From Meghimatium bilineatum (Eukaryota > Mollusca > Gastropoda > Stylommatophora > Philomycidae), in assembly GCA_034231615.1 (NCBI GenBank), contig CM067317.1:17808264-17872263 (forward strand): 64,000 nucleotides of DNA, given 5' to 3'. This document shows positions 20,931-60,650 of the stretch, piece after piece (positions within the stretch are counted from its first letter, which is position 1; the number at the start of each line of letters is the position of its first letter). A program made the position numbers and the translations under genes. The notes below the pieces were generated by a model. It made no database searches, was not told the origin of the DNA, and saw only the letters and a program-made list of their open reading frames with translations.

Positions 20931-20934
20931 ATCA

Positions 20935-21348
20935 CAAGTGATGATGACCATTTTTTACATCCACTTTTAAAAATTCAATTACATTTTGACCATACATAAT
21001 AGTTCGTAGATGGCTAATGAACCCCATTTCGAGCTGTAAATGGCCTTGGACAGTTCGAGCATGGAATGAGTCCTTGTAGCGCTTCTTTTGGCCACCTTGA
21101 GAACGTTTACCCTTCTCCAGCTCACCATAGAGAAGTATCTTTGACAGGCGATGGCCTGGCATACATACCAAGTAATCTTCCCATCGAAACTGTTTCTGCA
21201 TCAGGATACTGTCAATGCTGGGGATACCAGCAAAGATAGTGGTATCTGGAAACTTGTCTTGCCATCTGATATTCACAACGTTTCTGAGACACGCAGTGTG
21301 AAAGTGATTGCATTTCCTCACTTCACGATTTAAGGTATACCAGTTCAC
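20935..21348 (-). pseudogene. LINE-D C-terminus with internal deletion, open for 138 codons
   Basis: The frame 20932-21348 reads EVRKCNHFHTACLRNVVNIR, IPSIDSILMQKQFRWEDYLV, MPGHRLSKILLYGELEKGKR and SQGGQKKRYKDS, the standard LINE-D C-terminal blocks. It then jumps straight to ARTVQGHLQLE and FISHLRT, which belong to the terminal finger region. About 200 bases present in the 28.2-kb copy are missing at this junction, along with the first Cys pair. The reading frame across the deletion stays open, which makes it the longest intact LINE frame here. Confidence 0.9.
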
Positions 21349-23414: not shown

Positions 23415-23740
23415 CCACATAACAAATGTACAACCCTAAGAATTCCAACAACTATGTTTTAGACAACTCCAAGAAAATTGCAGCGAGAAAGGTTAGACAT
23501 TTCTTCATTGCCTTCGTCGAACTAACCAAGGTTGTTGCTACTGTTAGCAGCGCATCACTCTATATGGCAACCAAGGCCATTGCATGTCCCTCGAAACTGT
23601 TACAACTATTGCTTCATTACAAGAAGGCAGTCATCCATTTGGATAGCTGAATATCTGATAGTTTTGATGACAAGAGTGCTGTCAAACAGGGATGTGTACT
23701 TGATCTAACGTTCTTCGATATAGTCTTTTCTAACTGACTA
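23415..23740 (+). pseudogene. LINE-D-like reverse transcriptase fingers fragment
   Basis: The frame from 23426 reads RHFFIAFVELTKVVATVSSA and CPSKLLQLLLHYKK. After one stop it continues in the same frame as KSAVKQGCVLDLTFFDIVFS. These match the RTE-like motifs FIDLTKAFDTVSR, CP-RLL-II-FH and GVKQGCVLAPTLFGIFF in order. The first catalytic Asp region (FVELTK) has Asp changed to Glu, and one stop separates the halves. It ends before the FADD motif. Confidence 0.85.
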
Positions 23741-24109: not shown

Positions 24110-25715
24110 TAAACCCTTTGTTTCCTTTCAGCCTCAGGGGTAGAAGAGTTTTATGGAGACGGCCGCTTGTGTGCTGAGTACATTGTGGAATTTGTCGCCT
24201 CTTTTATTTCGGTGGTCCATTGTTTTCGTGGTCGGCCTCTAGATCTGCCTTCACTGTATATGTGTAGCATGGATTGCTGATTTGTGCAAACCATTTGATC
24301 TGTTGACTCTTAATATATTCCAAGGTTGGGGTGGTGGAGGTTTTTTGTCTAATACCCTCATTCTTCACCCTCTCTCTCTTAGCGATATTCTTAGGATTCT
24401 ACATAAGCATGCCATTTCAGCTGTCACTAGTTTACGTTTGTGTTGTGATGTTGTTGTCCATGTTTGACATTGGTAGAACTGCGTTCGCATAATAAACATT
24501 TTGAATAGTGTTATTTTGGTGTTCAAATCAACATTTTTGTTTCTGAATATTGGGTAATTTGTCATAGGGCTTGGTATGCTTAACTATATATATTGTGTAT
24601 TTCTTTGTTGCTCTTGCCGTCTGTTATTATATTCATTTCTAGTTATATGAATTCTGTCAGGTGTTTACGTCTGTTGTTTCCAATATATATATATTTATTT
24701 ATTGCTGTTTCTTTCTGGTCTTCCTATCCTCATTACTACCGTCTTTTCTATAGTTATCTTGGTGCAAAATGTTTGGCATACATGATGTAATCTGTTTATT
24801 TGTCTTTGTAGTTGCACTTCTGTCCATGCTACAAGTGATTGATCGTCTGAAAATAGCAGTTCGTTTAATTTATCATTTAGGTTGTTTTCTTTCGTTGTCA
24901 TTGCTACTTTGCAGATGCGTTCTATATCTGTTATGAACAATAGAGGGGATAGTACACATCCCTGTCTCATTCCCGAGTTAATTTGGAAATTATCGGATGT
25001 ACCTGTGCTCTTTCTTACTGAGCATTGACTCTTGACGTATATGCTCTGACATAGGCTTATGTTGGGGAACCCCACATGTCTTTAATGGTATCCATAGTTG
25101 TGCTCTACCCATTCTGTCAAAAGTATTTCCTTAGTCCACGAAAGCCAAACATAAGTCTTAGATATGTTGTATCACTCTTTCTAAAAGTTATTGAAGGCGA
25201 AGATTTCATGTGTACAACTTTTATTTTTCTGAAAGCCTAATTGTGAGTTGTTGAGCCCCGTTGTTTAATATATGTGCGCATCATTCTCTCTAGTCTCTTG
25301 CTAAGGATTTTTCGTATGTGGCTTAAGAGTGGTATGCCATTGTTCGTACTGCCTTTTTTCTTTCAGATGGGAACAATCACCGATTCCACTCCTATGGTGT
25401 CTTTTGTGTCTTCCATATCACATTGGACAGTCTCTGTAGCCACTTTATACCTGCCACTGTTAGCATTTAAATTATTTATATAGGTATGTCGTCTATTCCA
25501 GGTGCTTTGTTATATGGTGCATGCTTAACTGTGTCTTCAATTTCCGATTTCGGGATGCATGGTTCTATGTCTTCATCTATTGTATTTTTTGTTGTATTCG
25601 CTTCTCCTTGCTTTAAGTTTAACAGTTGATGTAAGCAATTTTTCCATTTCAACACGATTTCTTGAGGTCTTTTTAGTATGTTGCCGAGTTCATCGTTGAT
25701 TGGAACTACATGTAG
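24110..25715 (-). pseudogene. LINE-F, most complete reverse transcriptase in the window
   Basis: From high to low coordinates: NILKRPQEIVLKWKNCLHQL and AKHAPYNKAPGIDDIP-like residues (25690-25480), the region before the fingers; IPLLSHIRKILSKRLERMM (about 25335-25280), the fingers motif; GMRQGCVLSPLLF and NELLFSDDQSLVAW (24695-25075), where the catalytic loop is FSDD instead of FADD; then LNTKITLFKMFIMRTQFYQC and AEMACLCRILRISLRERG (24365-24565), the post-palm region; and a final IKSQQIKWF block near 24300. Multiple stops and frame shifts are present. The endonuclease part is absent, so it is 5'-truncated at about 25715. A second copy is at 34.4 kb on +. Confidence 0.88.
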
Positions 25716-33548: not shown

Positions 33549-34080
33549 ACATATGTCTTATAAATTCTGTCGAAAGTCACGATTTAATCGAACAACGTTC
33601 TGCATCATATCGGATGTTCTTAACCACGTCTGTACAACAGTGTCTATAGAGCTTGACAGTAAAACGCCATACATCTTGGCAGATCCAACTGCCCCGACGT
33701 TTTTATTATTCACTACACGCAGTTTGCTTATTTTTGTTATACACCTAATTACAAACACGGTTCATTTAAAGATCAGCCATCTGATGTGAACCGTTCTAAG
33801 ATTCAGTAATCTAGACAAAGCTGTTGTGCAATCGAGACAAATGGATCTGTGTATGATGCTATGTGATCATGTAATCCTAGTGCTACAAAATGCATCAATG
33901 ACAGAGCGTTTACAAAATTACATATCAGGCAGTGTCACAAGGTGTCATGAATGCCCGTGATCACCCGCTGGAAGACTGATTGTGGCACTATTTGCTCTTG
34001 CTAGCAATACACATCATCACATTGGATTCTAGTATGTATCAATTCTAAAAGTTTTGTGAAAATATCTTTTAGAAAGAATG
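33549..34080. other. no recognisable feature
   Basis: The 78-codon + frame at 33553-33789 has no recognised domain. Confidence 0.5.
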
Positions 34081-34084
34081 AAAT

Positions 34085-34400
34085 GTGGGAATAGTTAAAC
34101 TATTGAAAGGTGGCAATAGTTAGATAATTGAATAATCGCAAACGTTAAACTATTGACGGGAGGTAAAAGCTAAACTATTGAAAGATGTATTAATCTATTT
34201 AACTATTAACGATTTAAACTATTAAATTATTTACACTATTAAACTATATGCAAGTTATTGAAAAGTAACAAAAGTTAAACTATTGAAAAGTGGCAAAAGT
34301 AACCTATTGAAAGATGGCAGTGTTAAACTATTGAGAGCTGGCAATAGTTAAACTATTGGAAGGTCTATTAACTTATTACAATATTTAACTAGCAATTATT
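34085..34400. repeat. degenerate satellite, left part
   Basis: Irregular copies of a 24-30-bp unit with AGTTAAACTATTGAAAGGTG and GGCAAT. It is interrupted by a LINE-F copy and resumes at 34905. Confidence 0.85.
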
Positions 34401-34419
34401 AAACCAAGCTTATTAAACC

Positions 34420-34900
34420 AATATAGCACCAATCATCAGCAAAAAATATGTAGATTTAAACACCAAAATAACACTATTCAAAATAATTATGTCAACGCTT
34501 TGCTACCAATTCCAAACGTTGACAACGACAGCACAAGACAAACCGAAACTTGTGATTGCTGAAATGGCATGCTTACGCATAATCCTAGGAATATCGCTAA
34601 GAGTCAGTGTGAGGAATGAGGACATTCGGTAAAAAACAGCACCACCACAATCTTAGAATATAGCAAGAGACAACAGATCAAATGGTTTGCACACATCAGC
34701 AGACTATCATGAGACAGTATACCACAACAATCTATGATTCACAGATACAGCAAAGACAGATGTACGGCCGACCGTGAAAACGATGGACCACTGAAATAAA
34801 AGAGGCGGCAAAGTCCACAATATTCTCAGCACACAAGAGGGCAGTCTTCAGAATACTCTTCCACCCACGACGACAAAAGACAACAAAGCGTTTTAGCGAA
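34420..34900 (+). pseudogene. LINE-F C-terminal copy inserted in a satellite
   Basis: The frame reads KYVDLNTKITLFKIIMSTLC and AEMACLRIILGISLRVSVRN, matching DLNTKITLFKMFIMRT and AEMACLCRILRISLRERG of the 24.4-kb copy, and continues to the shared ORF end (CCACCCACGACGACAAAAGA). It has several stops. The same satellite lies on both sides, so it probably inserted into it. Confidence 0.85.
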
Positions 34901-34904
34901 TAGA

Positions 34905-35010
34905 TATAATTATTTAACTATTTAAACTATTAAACTATACGCACATTATTGAAATGGGGCAATAGTTTAACTAATGAAATGGGGCAATAGTTAAACTATT
35001 GTACATCATA
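34905..35010. repeat. degenerate satellite, right part
   Basis: TTTAACTATTTAAACTATTA, then GAAATGGGGCAATAGTTTAA and a second GGGGCAATAGTTAAACTATT, the same unit as 34085-34400. Confidence 0.85.
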
Positions 35011-35014
35011 GATG

Positions 35015-35105
35015 TCATCTTCTTCTGTGCTCATTCTTAGGCTCCCTGTGGTTCACAGGGTTTAGTCTGGACAACATATCTAATAGTTTACACATTGTCT
35101 GCTAA
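35015..35105 (-). mobile_element. GAA-tailed SINE-like repeat, partial
   Basis: On + ATCTTCTTCTGTGCTCATTC, then TTAGTCTGGACAACATATCT; tail-proximal part only, diverged. Confidence 0.5.
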
Positions 35106-35465
35106 ACCAAAGCATGAGTCAATATCGAGAATGCGGGAATTTGGAGTGAGGATGGGCATGGCCCGTAGAGAACCCCTGACAAAGATTTCAAATAGATCAG
35201 TGAACCAACATAGAACCGGAACCATCAGCCGTTATACCCTGAGAGATTTACTGAAGCGGAGATCTGAGTATATATGGACGTACCCAGTGTGCGAAGAGGA
35301 TAATCAACAGACCTAATACCTAACAATATCTTAGCCTTTGAACACGACACGCGTCTTCTGTGTCATTTTGACCCATATGTTGTGTGTCGTATGGGCAAAT
35401 CACCATAACGCCTTGTACTACATGCATGGTAATGTTCTGCACACGAGATCGTTATTCAACTAGTA
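35106..35465. other. unrecognised, slightly GC-richer patch
   Basis: A 73-codon + frame at 35095-35316 (basic, Arg-rich) has no recognised domain. Its composition differs from the neighbours, so it may be part of an unrecognised element. Confidence 0.4.
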
Positions 35466-35469
35466 TTGA

Positions 35470-35605
35470 ATTTTGAAAAGCCACTATTGCACCCAATCGT
35501 ATCGAGATTACGGTATGGATGTTTGGCGTTCGAACCACCTAGTTCGACACGTTGGATTTACGAGGCGAGCATTCTATCAACTCTGCTACCTCACAGACAA
35601 AAATT
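35470..35605 (-). mobile_element. tRNA-derived SINE, type 4
   Basis: The minus strand reads GAGGTAGCAGAGTTGATAGA (A-box-like) and GGTGGTTCGAACGCC (B box, complement around 35525-35539), with tRNA-like spacing. No perfect acceptor stem, so not a tRNA gene. Confidence 0.65.
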
Positions 35606-36300
35606 AATATTGTGTACGTGATTTTAAATAAAAATATAAGTATCACTTCAGAAGTAGTAGAATGTACATTTTGTTTCAGTATGTATGTACTATATTTTAA
35701 CTGTAATTGACTTTATGCGTGTAGTAATGACATACTGTACAACATTCATTGTTCAATGAATGTAATTAGACTGGTGTTATAATTGAGGGATATACGGAGT
35801 CCATGGCCCTGTTACGTCTGCAGAGCGTTTCGCCAACTTTCACCATTATAGGTTTGGGCAGTACAACATTATAAAATACCTCCTTAAGTGTTGTTTACAA
35901 TAAGAATAACACATTAGAGTCTTTCTATTACACATGCATCAATTCAATGTAATTATTTGAACATACATGCACATTTCACATATACTAGTAACGCAGTTAG
36001 CTGTGTAGCGGCCAAATCACTCGCTCAATGACCAGGCGATTCAACTAGTGACTAGGTAGATTAAAAACTATGTATGATGTCATCCTGATTCATTGCACAT
36101 TTGCAAGTATTACCATTACGGTAACTGATGATTTCGATCTTAATCAAATATGCATGTCCTTTAAAACGTTAATGGCATGTTGAATATTGATTAGTTACGC
36201 TTTCAGAACTGACGTGCATACATTTTACAGACAATGATGTGCCTCTCCCGTTCAGAAAGTTCGGCTGCACCAACAATTGTTTTTAGAAAAAACAGTGGCT
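35606..36300. other. no recognisable feature
   Basis: AT-rich DNA. Confidence 0.5.
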
Positions 36301-36478
36301 CTATCTTCAGCAATTCACAAACAGTATATTTCCTGCACTATTGTCTTCACCAAGTCACAAACAGTATATTTCCTGCACTATTGTCTTCACCAAGTGACAA
36401 ACAGTATATTTGCTGCACTATTGTCTTCACCAAGTCAAAAACAGTATATTTGCTGAACTATTGTCTTCACAAACTGCA
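36301..36478. repeat. 40-bp minisatellite
   Basis: Four copies with exact 40-bp period from 36321 (ACAGTATATTTCCTGCACTA, TTGTCTTCACCAAGTCACAA), preceded by a partial copy. Confidence 0.95.
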
Positions 36479-36720
36479 GTGGCGATTACTAATCACTAAT
36501 ATTATTATGCAGCGTTAAAAAGCATAGAATCTATACGCAACCGCAGGTCACCTTATCAAATGAATAATGAATCGGGGAAGTAATTAGGAGGTTGTACAAG
36601 CCTCAACTATAATACTAAACTATTAATTCATACACGCCTCGATTATAAGACTATACGATGACTTCTATAAGCCTCAGTTGTAAGACTATAAAGTGACTTC
36701 TACATGACGTTAGTACAGTG
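36479..36720. other. no recognisable feature
   Basis: Short unique spacer before the LINE-D copy. Confidence 0.5.
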
Positions 36721-36722
36721 TT

Positions 36723-39060
36723 TTGCATCGAATTCAATACCGGATGAAAACTATATGGATATCCAGTAATCCAGCTGCTGAAAGAGTCATCTTCCGTCTC
36801 GCTGAAATTGGCGAGTTTAATGATAAACCAACGGATAAAGAGGTACGCGACAACGTGCACAGTGTCCACAATGATAAAGCAAGCAATGACACCATACACA
36901 GTGTCCCCAATGATAAAGCAAGCAATGGCACCATGCACAGTGTCCACAATGATAAAGCAAGCAATGGCACCATGCACTGTGTCCCCATTGATAAAGCAAG
37001 CAATGACACCATGCACAGTGTGTCGCCAATAATAAAGCAAGTAATGACAATATACACAGTGTCGCCAATGATAAAGCAATCAATAACGCCATACACAGTG
37101 TTCCCAACGATAAAGCAAGCAATGACACCATGCACAGTGTTCACAATGATAAACCAAGCAATGACACCGAGCACAGTGTCCCGTGATAAAGCAAGCAATG
37201 ACACCATGCACAGTGTCGCCAATGATAAAGCAAGCAATGACACAATGCACAGTGTCGCCAATGATAAAGCAAGCAATGACACCAAGCACAGTGTCGCCAA
37301 ATGATAAAGCAAGCAATGACACCATGCACTCTGTCCCCAATGATAAAGCAAGCAATGACACCATGCACAGTGTCTCTCATGATAAAGCAAGCAATGCCAC
37401 CATAGTGTCTCTAATGATAAAGCAAGCAATTACATCATTCACAGTGTCTCTAATGATAAAGCAAGCAATGACACAATATACAGTGTCGCCAATGATAAAG
37501 CAAGTAATGACACCATAGTGTCTCTAATGATAAAGCAAGCAATGACACTATTCCTGGTGAATTCATCAAATAATACCATGAAGTTATCTAGAAACACCTT
37601 TATGAGTTGTTAATTCAGTGCTGCAAAAAAGGTCGAAATTCCCCAAGATATACGAGAAGCAAATGTTGTTACACTGTGTGAGAACAAAGGTGACACATGC
37701 GATTGTAATATTTACAGAGAAATACCATATTATGGGTGACAGGACAAGTGTTCTCATGTGTAATATGAATCTTTTACAGAGATTGACGGAGCGCACGCGA
37801 GTCACAGTGTAGTTTTCGATCTGTTCGATCTACCACTAACATTATCTTCGCTCTTAAACAAACCCAAGAAAATTGCTGAGAGCAAGGAAGATCTTTCTTC
37901 ATTGTTTTCATCGACCCAATCAAGGCTGCCGATATTGTTAGCAGGGCATCACTCTACATTGTGCTCGAGTCTATGGGATGTCCATCGAGAATGTTACAAC
38001 TCATCACTTACTTCCATGACAATATGAAAAAATTAATCCAATCTGATAGCAAAACATCTGACAACTTAGACGTCAAAAGTGGAGCCAAGCAAGTACGTGT
38101 CCACGATGCAACCATCTTCGGTATATTCTTCTCCGTCCTCCTACATTGATATTGTAAGCTCAGAATGTGACTTCCTCATTCGATCGAGATTTGATGACTT
38201 CATGATTAACGTGACGTGTCTGAAAGCGAAAATGCATACCCCTGAGATCCTTTCCATTGGACTTCTGTACGTTAACAATGCAGCTCTAGTGGCTCATAAT
38301 AAAACGATACTACAAGAACTGCATAGCAGTTTGGCAATGGCTGCAACACGTTCTGGCTGTCAATAAACATCAAGAAAACTGTGGGCATCCGCCAAAACGC
38401 TCCCACATTACCGACTAAAACACTGAATAATGTGCAACTTGAATAGTTACATAACGTTAACTTCTTGGTTTCCAATGTCACTGCAACACTATTGCGCTTC
38501 AAAGAAATAAGTGCCGGAATAAGAATTGCAGCCACCACGTTCTGAAAACTGTAAAATAAAGCATGGAGGTAATACAAAATTACAGCGGCAAGATAGATTA
38601 TGATATACCAAACATATATAATCAGTGTCTTTCTCTACAGATTGAAATTATGGACACATTACGAGGTAAGAAAAAGGCGGAATATCTACAGATTAGATTG
38701 TCTCCCGTACAATTCTGAACATTAGTTGGCAAGACAAAATCACCAATACCAACGTTTTCAGGCAGGCCAGAATTTCAACAATAATGTCCAATTGTAGTAA
38801 CTGAAGACTTAGGTGGCTTAGCCACATTCAGAGGACGAGCAACATCCTCATCCTAAAACAACTGCTATATGATTTGATGTTACATGGTGAAAAAAAAAGA
38901 TGCGGACCCCAGCAGCGATACACATGTTTTGTCAGCAAGTCCAAAAACTGGGAAAACCTGCTGAAAGATTACGACGCACGGAGAACTAGCGTGTATAATG
39001 ATGCATGGTCTTTTGAGAATTCAATAACAAGCAGAGCGAAAGAACGATGACGGATGTGTA
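36723..39060 (+). pseudogene. LINE-D-like copy whose RT contains an expanded minisatellite
   Basis: Before the array the frame reads AEIGEFNDKPTDKEVRDNVH, the usual stretch ahead of the NGKAPGNDGIP motif. After it, NDKASNDTIPGEFIK continues into HLYELLIQCCKKGRNSP, SQCSFRSVRSTT, FFIVFIDPIKAADIVSRA, MGCPSRMLQLITYFHDNMKK, KSGAKQVRVHDATIFGIFFS and LSIGLLYVNNAALVAHNKT, the full run of RTE-like reverse-transcriptase motifs from fingers to palm. The catalytic loop is altered to YVNNAA, so both Asp are lost. The C-terminal region up to about 39060 is more decayed. There are many stops and shifts. No endonuclease is present. It is the longest LINE stretch here, and the 36858-37550 array lies inside it. 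Confidence 0.88.
36858..37550. repeat. 39-bp (13-codon) minisatellite inside a LINE RT gene
   Basis: About 18 copies of CACAGTGTCGCCAATGATAA plus AGCAAGCAATGACACCATG. Each unit encodes a variant of KASNDTMHSVPND in the frame of the surrounding LINE. The first and last units are continuous with LINE coding sequence on both sides. Two units lack six bases. Because 39 is divisible by three, long frames run through on both strands (for example 36723-37304 on + and 36734-37429 on -), but they are not genes. Confidence 0.95.
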
Positions 39061-45104: not shown

Positions 45105-46190
45105 AAGATATATGGTCATACGTTAGACGGTGAGATAAGAGAGATCGCCATGTTAGAAAGTGAGATAAGAGAGATCGTAATGTTAGAAAGTGAGATAAGA
45201 GAGAATATCATGTTAGAATGTGAGATAAGAGAGATCGCCATGTTAGACAGTGAGATAAGAAAGATCGCCATGTTAGACGGTGAGATAAGAGAGATCGCCA
45301 TGTTAGACGGTGAGATAAGAGAGATCGCCATGATAGACGGTGAGATAAGAGAGATCACCATGTTAGACGGTGAGATAAGAGAGATCGCCATGTTAGACGG
45401 TGAGATAAGAGAGATCGCCATGTTAGACGGTGAGATAAGAGAGATCGCCAAGTTAGACGGTGACATCAGAGAGAATGTCATGTTAGACGGTGACATAAGA
45501 GAGAATGTCATGTAAGACGGTGACATAAGAGAGAATGTCATGTAAGACGGTGACATAAGAGAGAATGTCATGTAAGACGGTGACATAAGAGAGAATGTCA
45601 TGTAAGACGGTGACATAAGAGAGAATGTCATGTAAGACGGTGACATAAGAGAGAATGTCATGTAAGACGGTGACATAAGAGAGAATGTCATGTAAGACGG
45701 TGATATAGGAGAGAATGTCATGTGTGACGTGACATAAGAGAGAATGTCATGTTAGACGGTGACATAAGAGAGAATGTCATGTAGGACGTGACATAAGAGA
45801 GAATGTCATGTAAGACGGTGACATAAGAGAGAATGTCATGTAAGACGTGACATAAGAGAGAATGTCATGTTTGAGGTGACATAAGAGAGAATGTCATGTT
45901 AGTCGGTGAGATAGGAGAGATTGTCATGTTAGACCGTGAGATAAGAGAGAACGTGAGATAAAAGAAAATGTCATGTTTGTGAGATAAAAGAGAATGTCAT
46001 GTTAGACTGTGAGATAAGAGAGATCGTGAGATAAGAGAGAATGTCGTGTTAGATAGTGCGATTAGAGATATCGTCATTATAGAAAGTGAGATAAAAGAGA
46101 TCGTCATGCTAGAAAATAAGATAGATCGCCATGTTCGAATGTGAGTTATAGAGAATGTCATATTTGACGGTGCGATAAGAGAAATAGTCA
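45105..46190. repeat. 30-bp minisatellite, about 36 copies
   Basis: Unit GTTAGACGGTGAGATAAGAG plus AGATCGCCAT. The left third carries GAGATAAGAGAGATCGCC. The middle is homogeneous for GACATAAGAGAGAATGTC with TAAGACGG, and the right end is mixed and shorter. The 30-bp period keeps both strands open (121 codons +, 201 codons -), and these frames are not genes. Confidence 0.97.
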
Positions 46191-60243: not shown

Positions 60244-60650
60244 ATGGGAGGTGCTGCCGAAGACCTGCCGGATATGCCGGTCACCTGCCATCGGAAAAAA
60301 CAGATGATCAAGTCAATAAGAAAGCCACAAACACCAACACAAGATGATTATCACATTATGAACAGATCAGAACAGGTTATAATTCTACGTCTCAGAACAG
60401 GACACAACCGACTCCGCAGTCACATGTATACAAAGTTCAAGATTGGAAACACAGCCATGTGTACATGTGGACAGGCAGCACAGAGTGCCAAACATATACT
60501 TCAAGAGTGTTCTGAGCATGAAACGCTGAGGCAGACATATTGGCCAGAGGAAACAACACTGGAATCAAAGCTCTATGGGACAATGTATGAACTACAAAAG
60601 ACAGTGGGTTTTATTAAGGAAACAGAATTGCAGATATAGACATGTTTCAA
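60244..60650 (+). pseudogene. LINE-H C-terminus with Cys/His tail, intact frame
   Basis: The 131-codon frame reads SEQVIILRLRTGHNRLRSHM, YTKFKIGNTAMCTCGQAAQS, AKHILQECSEHETLRQTYWP and LYGTMYELQKTVGFIKETEL, then a stop. In jockey-type LINEs with RNase H this is the C-terminal module: an LRTGHN block followed by a CxC-x9-H-x4-C knuckle thought to bind nucleic acid. All four Cys/His positions are present. The RNase H domain itself is missing, so the copy is 5'-truncated. The open frame suggests it is fairly young. Confidence 0.88.

Follow-up and report, generated by a model that had tools for sequence, protein, structure and literature searches.

In the stretch of Meghimatium bilineatum DNA analysed here (64,000 nucleotides, hereafter the window), a minisatellite is found between two parts of a decayed LINE, which raises the question of whether the array grew out of the element, was carried in by it or came to lie there by chance. 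There is good support for a local origin of the array out of the LINE, as had been proposed in the initial annotation, and the evidence comes from the LINE-coding flanks, from the element's own RT0-like motif and from the alignment of a one-unit version to ORF2p. Insertion and decay of the LINE, followed by growth in place of its 39-bp reverse transcriptase (RT) segment to 18 units, is very probably the history of the locus.

The array and its units

The array was delimited in two ways. TRF reports a 39-bp tandem array of 18.1 copies at 36849-37548 (85% matches, score 932), while cutting at the core GATAAAGCAAGCAAT gives 18 units followed by the tail GACACTATTCCTGGTG, and the approximately 18-fold repetition of a 39-bp unit first read from the letters is therefore confirmed by both. 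Being tandem, with a unit size between 10 and 100 bp, the array is a minisatellite. Its main features are:

36849-37543, plus strand: minisatellite, 18 units of about 39 bp with consensus GACACCATGCACAGTGTCCCCAATGATAAAGCAAGCAAT (DTMHSVPNDKASN), from TRF and from the unit split and alignment
36849-36887, plus strand: unit 1, with EV-x10-KA spacing

The unit length is 39 bp in 13 of the 18 cases, the remaining five being of 41, 37, 40, 35 and 35 bp. The expansion had been described as in frame, which holds unit by unit for those 13 but not for the whole array, given the five frame-breaking units. The mean pairwise p-distance among the 18 units is 0.138 (range 0.026-0.243). Moreover, the repeat is confined to this place within the window: a 21-base piece of the unit, searched with up to 3 mismatches, gave 17 matches, all 17 inside the array, and none in 100 dinucleotide shuffles.

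Two further properties of the array were considered and set aside. The 158-bp row of TRF was rejected as a four-unit higher-order repeat, because the likeness at lag 4 does not exceed that of randomly ordered units (0.136 vs 0.138). Two consensus units fold with -11.9 kcal/mol on the minus strand (z -3.19, 1 of 200 shuffles as good) and with -8.1 kcal/mol on the plus strand (z -1.56, 15 of 200 shuffles as good), but little weight was given to a hairpin, as any tandem array whose unit holds a short inverted repeat will show pairing between neighbours.

The surrounding LINE

The element that hosts the array, labelled LINE-D in the initial annotation, is preserved as a series of fragments:

36768-36857, plus strand: 5' LINE flank NPAAERVIFRLAEIGEFNDKPTDKEVRDNV, one open frame into unit 1, directly before the RT0-like motif
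37544-37570, plus strand: array tail running into the LINE, DTIPGEFIK, in a frame different from that of the 5' flank
37614-38458, plus strand: remaining part of the decayed reverse transcriptase, broken up across three frames (KVEIPQDIREANVV..., ESQCSFRSVRSTTNIIFALKQ..., FFIVFID..., LSINIKKT...)
38715-39047, plus strand: probable C-terminal part of the same LINE (LNISWQDKITNTNVF...), matching an ORF at 20932-21348 (minus)

The 5' flank and unit 1, as cut, overlap by 9 bases. The coding sequences pointed out earlier on the two sides of the array, NDKPTDKEVRDNVHSVHNDK upstream (from 36819) and NDTIPGEFIK downstream (from 37541), are both present, albeit in different frames.

The identity of the element was established on a read-through protein of 329 residues, in which the broken frames were joined and the array was cut to one unit. 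Residues 13-240 of the 329 are collinear, across the array site, with 8c8j_A (named RNA-directed DNA polymerase) at E 1.5e-4, and the same protein matches 8sxt_A (named LINE-1 ORF2 protein) at E 1.6e-4, values that flatter the match somewhat, in a way not corrected by shuffles, as the frames were picked by eye under the guidance of known LINE sequences. The alignment to 8c8j_A is nearly identical to that with ORF2p, and by these two matches the reverse transcriptase is of the LINE kind. Each of the nine sequences listed to E 1 belongs to LINE-1 ORF2p or R2 or is named a reverse transcriptase in some other way, with R2 appearing from E 0.044. The match to RVT_1 (E 2.8e-5) lies below the curated cut-off (24.3 vs 29.6 bits). 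The ORF2p alignment includes the 5' flank from EIGEF on and extends as far as FSVLLH in the decayed RT; the flank's own share of the score is small, versions with two to four units, in which it is left unaligned, scoring 52 vs 61.

Shorter pieces carry less of this signal. The four RT fragments scanned singly gave no Pfam match, and neither the shorter joined pieces (first and third) nor the whole frames with X at stops matched RVT_1. Against the PDB, the best match of the first joined piece was 8c8j_A (E 0.66), followed by an esterase (E 0.84), and the second joined piece gave five proteins at E 0.35-1.1, each of R2 type or bearing the name reverse transcriptase. HicB and Poty_PP matched in Pfam below threshold, which was ascribed to chance. 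Relatives were also sought in viral contigs and in bacterial and archaeal contigs, and none was found there.

As regards the ends of the element, the first 69 of the 111 residues of the probable C-terminal part match the 138-aa ORF at 20932-21348, with 22 of 69 identical and an E of 5e-9 in a single comparison; sequences like these two we take to be LINE C-termini. On the other side, where an APE-type endonuclease would be expected, the 3 forward frames of 34000-36860 gave no Pfam match of any kind, in a blunt scan that also missed the downstream RT. Just 5' of the LINE fragment, at 36304-36470, there is a 40-bp array of 4.2 units (94% matches), whose consensus looks unrelated to the 39-bp unit.

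Origin of the unit

The unit, HSVHNDKASNDTI, corresponds to the RT0-like segment of the LINE itself. Together with its flank, unit 1 reads EVRDNVHSVHNDKASNDTI from 36840 and displays the pattern EV-x10-KA, which occurs twice in the window (in the array and at 25544, minus), whereas 100 shuffled windows gave 0.03 occurrences on average; this spacing points to unit 1 as the original LINE segment. The collinearity of the read-through and the spacing of the motif make the unit homologous to a segment of the surrounding transposable element. When scored against the ORF2p segment, the version with one unit reaches 61, that with none 57 and those with two to four 52, and none of 2000 shuffles reaches 61. 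The lead of one unit over no unit is small because the flank NDKPTDKEV happens to resemble the unit.

In one detail the first description of the motif has to be corrected. The unit had been placed at a conserved K-A-x-x-x-D-x-IP motif of the LINE, while the actual sequence, KAS-NDTIP, is one residue short of KAxxxDxIP; it is likewise one residue shorter than the motif of ORF2p and of a second LINE in the window, and the read-through alignment to ORF2p has a single-residue gap at this point. Since the extra codon is present in 0 of the 18 units, the shorter form predates the array.

Other LINE remnants in the window

A DNA copy of part of the RT of the array LINE is found at 23459-23730, with 70% identity over 281 columns. 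A further element is also present:

24695-25553, minus strand: second decayed LINE, with an ORF matching RVT_1 (E 4.4e-8) and the RT0-like motif once

In this second LINE the motif, EIEDTVKHAPYNKAPGIDDIP at 25544 (minus), is single, without any array, and lies upstream of the RVT_1-matching ORF. It was ruled out as a sister copy, because there is no DNA-level match between the two elements and because the motif region is not significantly similar by alignment (score 32, with 250 of 2000 shuffles as high).

The remnants bear on an alternative history, in which the LINE subfamily carried a short array at the motif before insertion and only the number of units changed later. Nothing speaks directly for this history; it is entertained because the window yielded no sister copy that spans the motif, the RT copy at 23459-23730 stopping short of it. 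An array within the conserved RT0 should, however, disable the reverse transcriptase, which would make an active parent with such an array improbable unless it was moved in trans, and 5 of the 18 units break the frame, though possibly at a later time. On balance, an array inherited from the parent is very unlikely.

Two other places in the window recall LINE sequences. The segment 375-503 has a weak match (E 0.004, LLFADDAA) to a region further on in the RT of the array LINE and is perhaps another RT remnant. Furthermore, 60244-60639 holds a 131-aa ORF with cysteines and histidines, which presumably recalls the C-terminal end of other LINE proteins.

Probable growth of the array in place

In the favoured history, a LINE copy would have inserted here and then decayed, after which the 39-bp RT-coding stretch with the RT0-like motif would have been tandemly duplicated in place. 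The first duplication would probably have started from short, imperfect direct repeats standing 39 bp apart, GATAAAG...GACA, through slipped-strand mispairing or unequal exchange, and subsequent local duplications would have brought the array to 18 units. From the present state of the locus we infer that the array grew after insertion, that slippage was involved, that the short repeats played a part in it and, with this, what caused the first duplication.

In the one-unit state, GATAAAG (7 bp) and GACA (4 bp) recur at lag 39, with 12 of 24 matches, a value equalled by 1.2% of position-lag pairs, and repeats at this distance would favour slippage. The repeat is nevertheless weak: of the 106 lags compared, 39 shares score 7 with five others and is surpassed by lag 51 (12 of 13 matches) and by lag 21. 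The units themselves carry traces of the later steps. A 4-bp deletion common to units 15 and 18, and a T variant near the middle common to units 14, 15, 16 and 18, are marks of local duplication. There is also a weak indication of greater likeness between neighbours than a random order would give (0.124 vs 0.137; 2.6% of 5000 permutations as low, for one of eight lags tested). Finally, the divergence between units (0.138) is lower than that between the two RT copies (about 0.30).

Two other readings were weighed. The RT0 motif of the LINE family might be slip-prone in general, its codons making direct repeats 39 bp apart, in which case other dead members of the family would have acquired similar arrays independently; we regard this as very unlikely. 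The other holds that an independent minisatellite arose or landed in the LINE by chance and resembles the motif by coincidence. Tandem arrays are indeed abundant in the window (43, with TRF rows merged by hand, covering 11.2% of the bases), so that an array within the LINE is no surprise, and the chance likeness of the flank leaves the version without any unit nearly equal in score (57 vs 61). Against coincidence, the unit carries the motif at the right spacing, in a pattern expected 0.03 times per shuffled window, and both ends of the array run on into LINE coding sequence at the right place, which makes this reading most improbable.

Relation to known systems

Minisatellites and satellites derived from transposons, LINE ORF2 included, have already been described (PMC3389668, PMC9659126). 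A count for the human genome gives 7,276 minisatellites derived from transposable elements, 601 of them from L1 outside L1PA, and an AluJo-derived array is reported with 17 repeats of 52 bp and units added in situ (Ahmed and Liang 2012, PMC3389668). The present array, with part of a transposable element apparently expanded in tandem in place, is like the human single-locus cases of that study, but it belongs to another genome and another LINE, its repeat consists of a conserved RT motif, and the copies diverge more (mean 0.138) than the 95% identity required there (PMC3389668). Satellites with parts of LINE ORF2 are also listed, namely PROsat of Phodopus, Pvc 20 of the seal and HinfI/SCR1 of the chicken, from CR1 (PMC9659126); the array shares with them tandem repetition involving ORF2 coding sequence, whereas it is one short local array within the window and they are listed satellites (PMC9659126).

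As for the mechanism, the model of Haber and Louis, as summarised in PMC6947457, derives the birth of minisatellites from direct repeats of 5-10 bp. The proposed origin agrees with it in that the unit spans the gap between short direct repeats and would be expanded by slippage or unequal exchange, but differs in that no more than 4 bp (GACA) are exactly repeated at the junction, the in-register GATAAAG lying farther upstream. A non-exhaustive literature search returned no paper on the motif in question among the titles and abstract openings. The interest of the locus is that parent (the coding motif) and product (the minisatellite) are visible together, as a clean, textbook-style case; knowledge of how minisatellites arise is unchanged by it.

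Coding capacity and long open frames

The array has no coding role. Long open frames run over it because the 13-codon unit lacks a stop, and the stop-free frames overlapping it rank first (231 aa, minus) and third (196 aa, plus) in the window. These frames are what would speak for an array kept as a translated repeat domain, a reading that can be given almost no credence: none of the five length variants keeps the frame, the array is not spanned from end to end by any stop-free frame, and the changes between units show no coding constraint. The latter are about evenly spread over codon positions 1, 2 and 3 (21, 15 and 20). In the LINE frame, 15 of 56 changes are synonymous against 21% expected with transitions weighted (p 0.195), or 27% seen vs 17% expected without such weighting, and no synonymous excess is significant in any of the three forward frames.

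The array had also been credited with the longest frames of the window, which is mostly right: the first and the third are due to it, but not the second (211 aa, minus), which sits in another array at about 45 kb. Long frames in such windows may thus be repeat artefacts. That other array, at 45122-46123, has a 30-bp unit (27.8 copies by TRF at 45122-45951, with more rows to 46123) and hosts the 211-aa frame.
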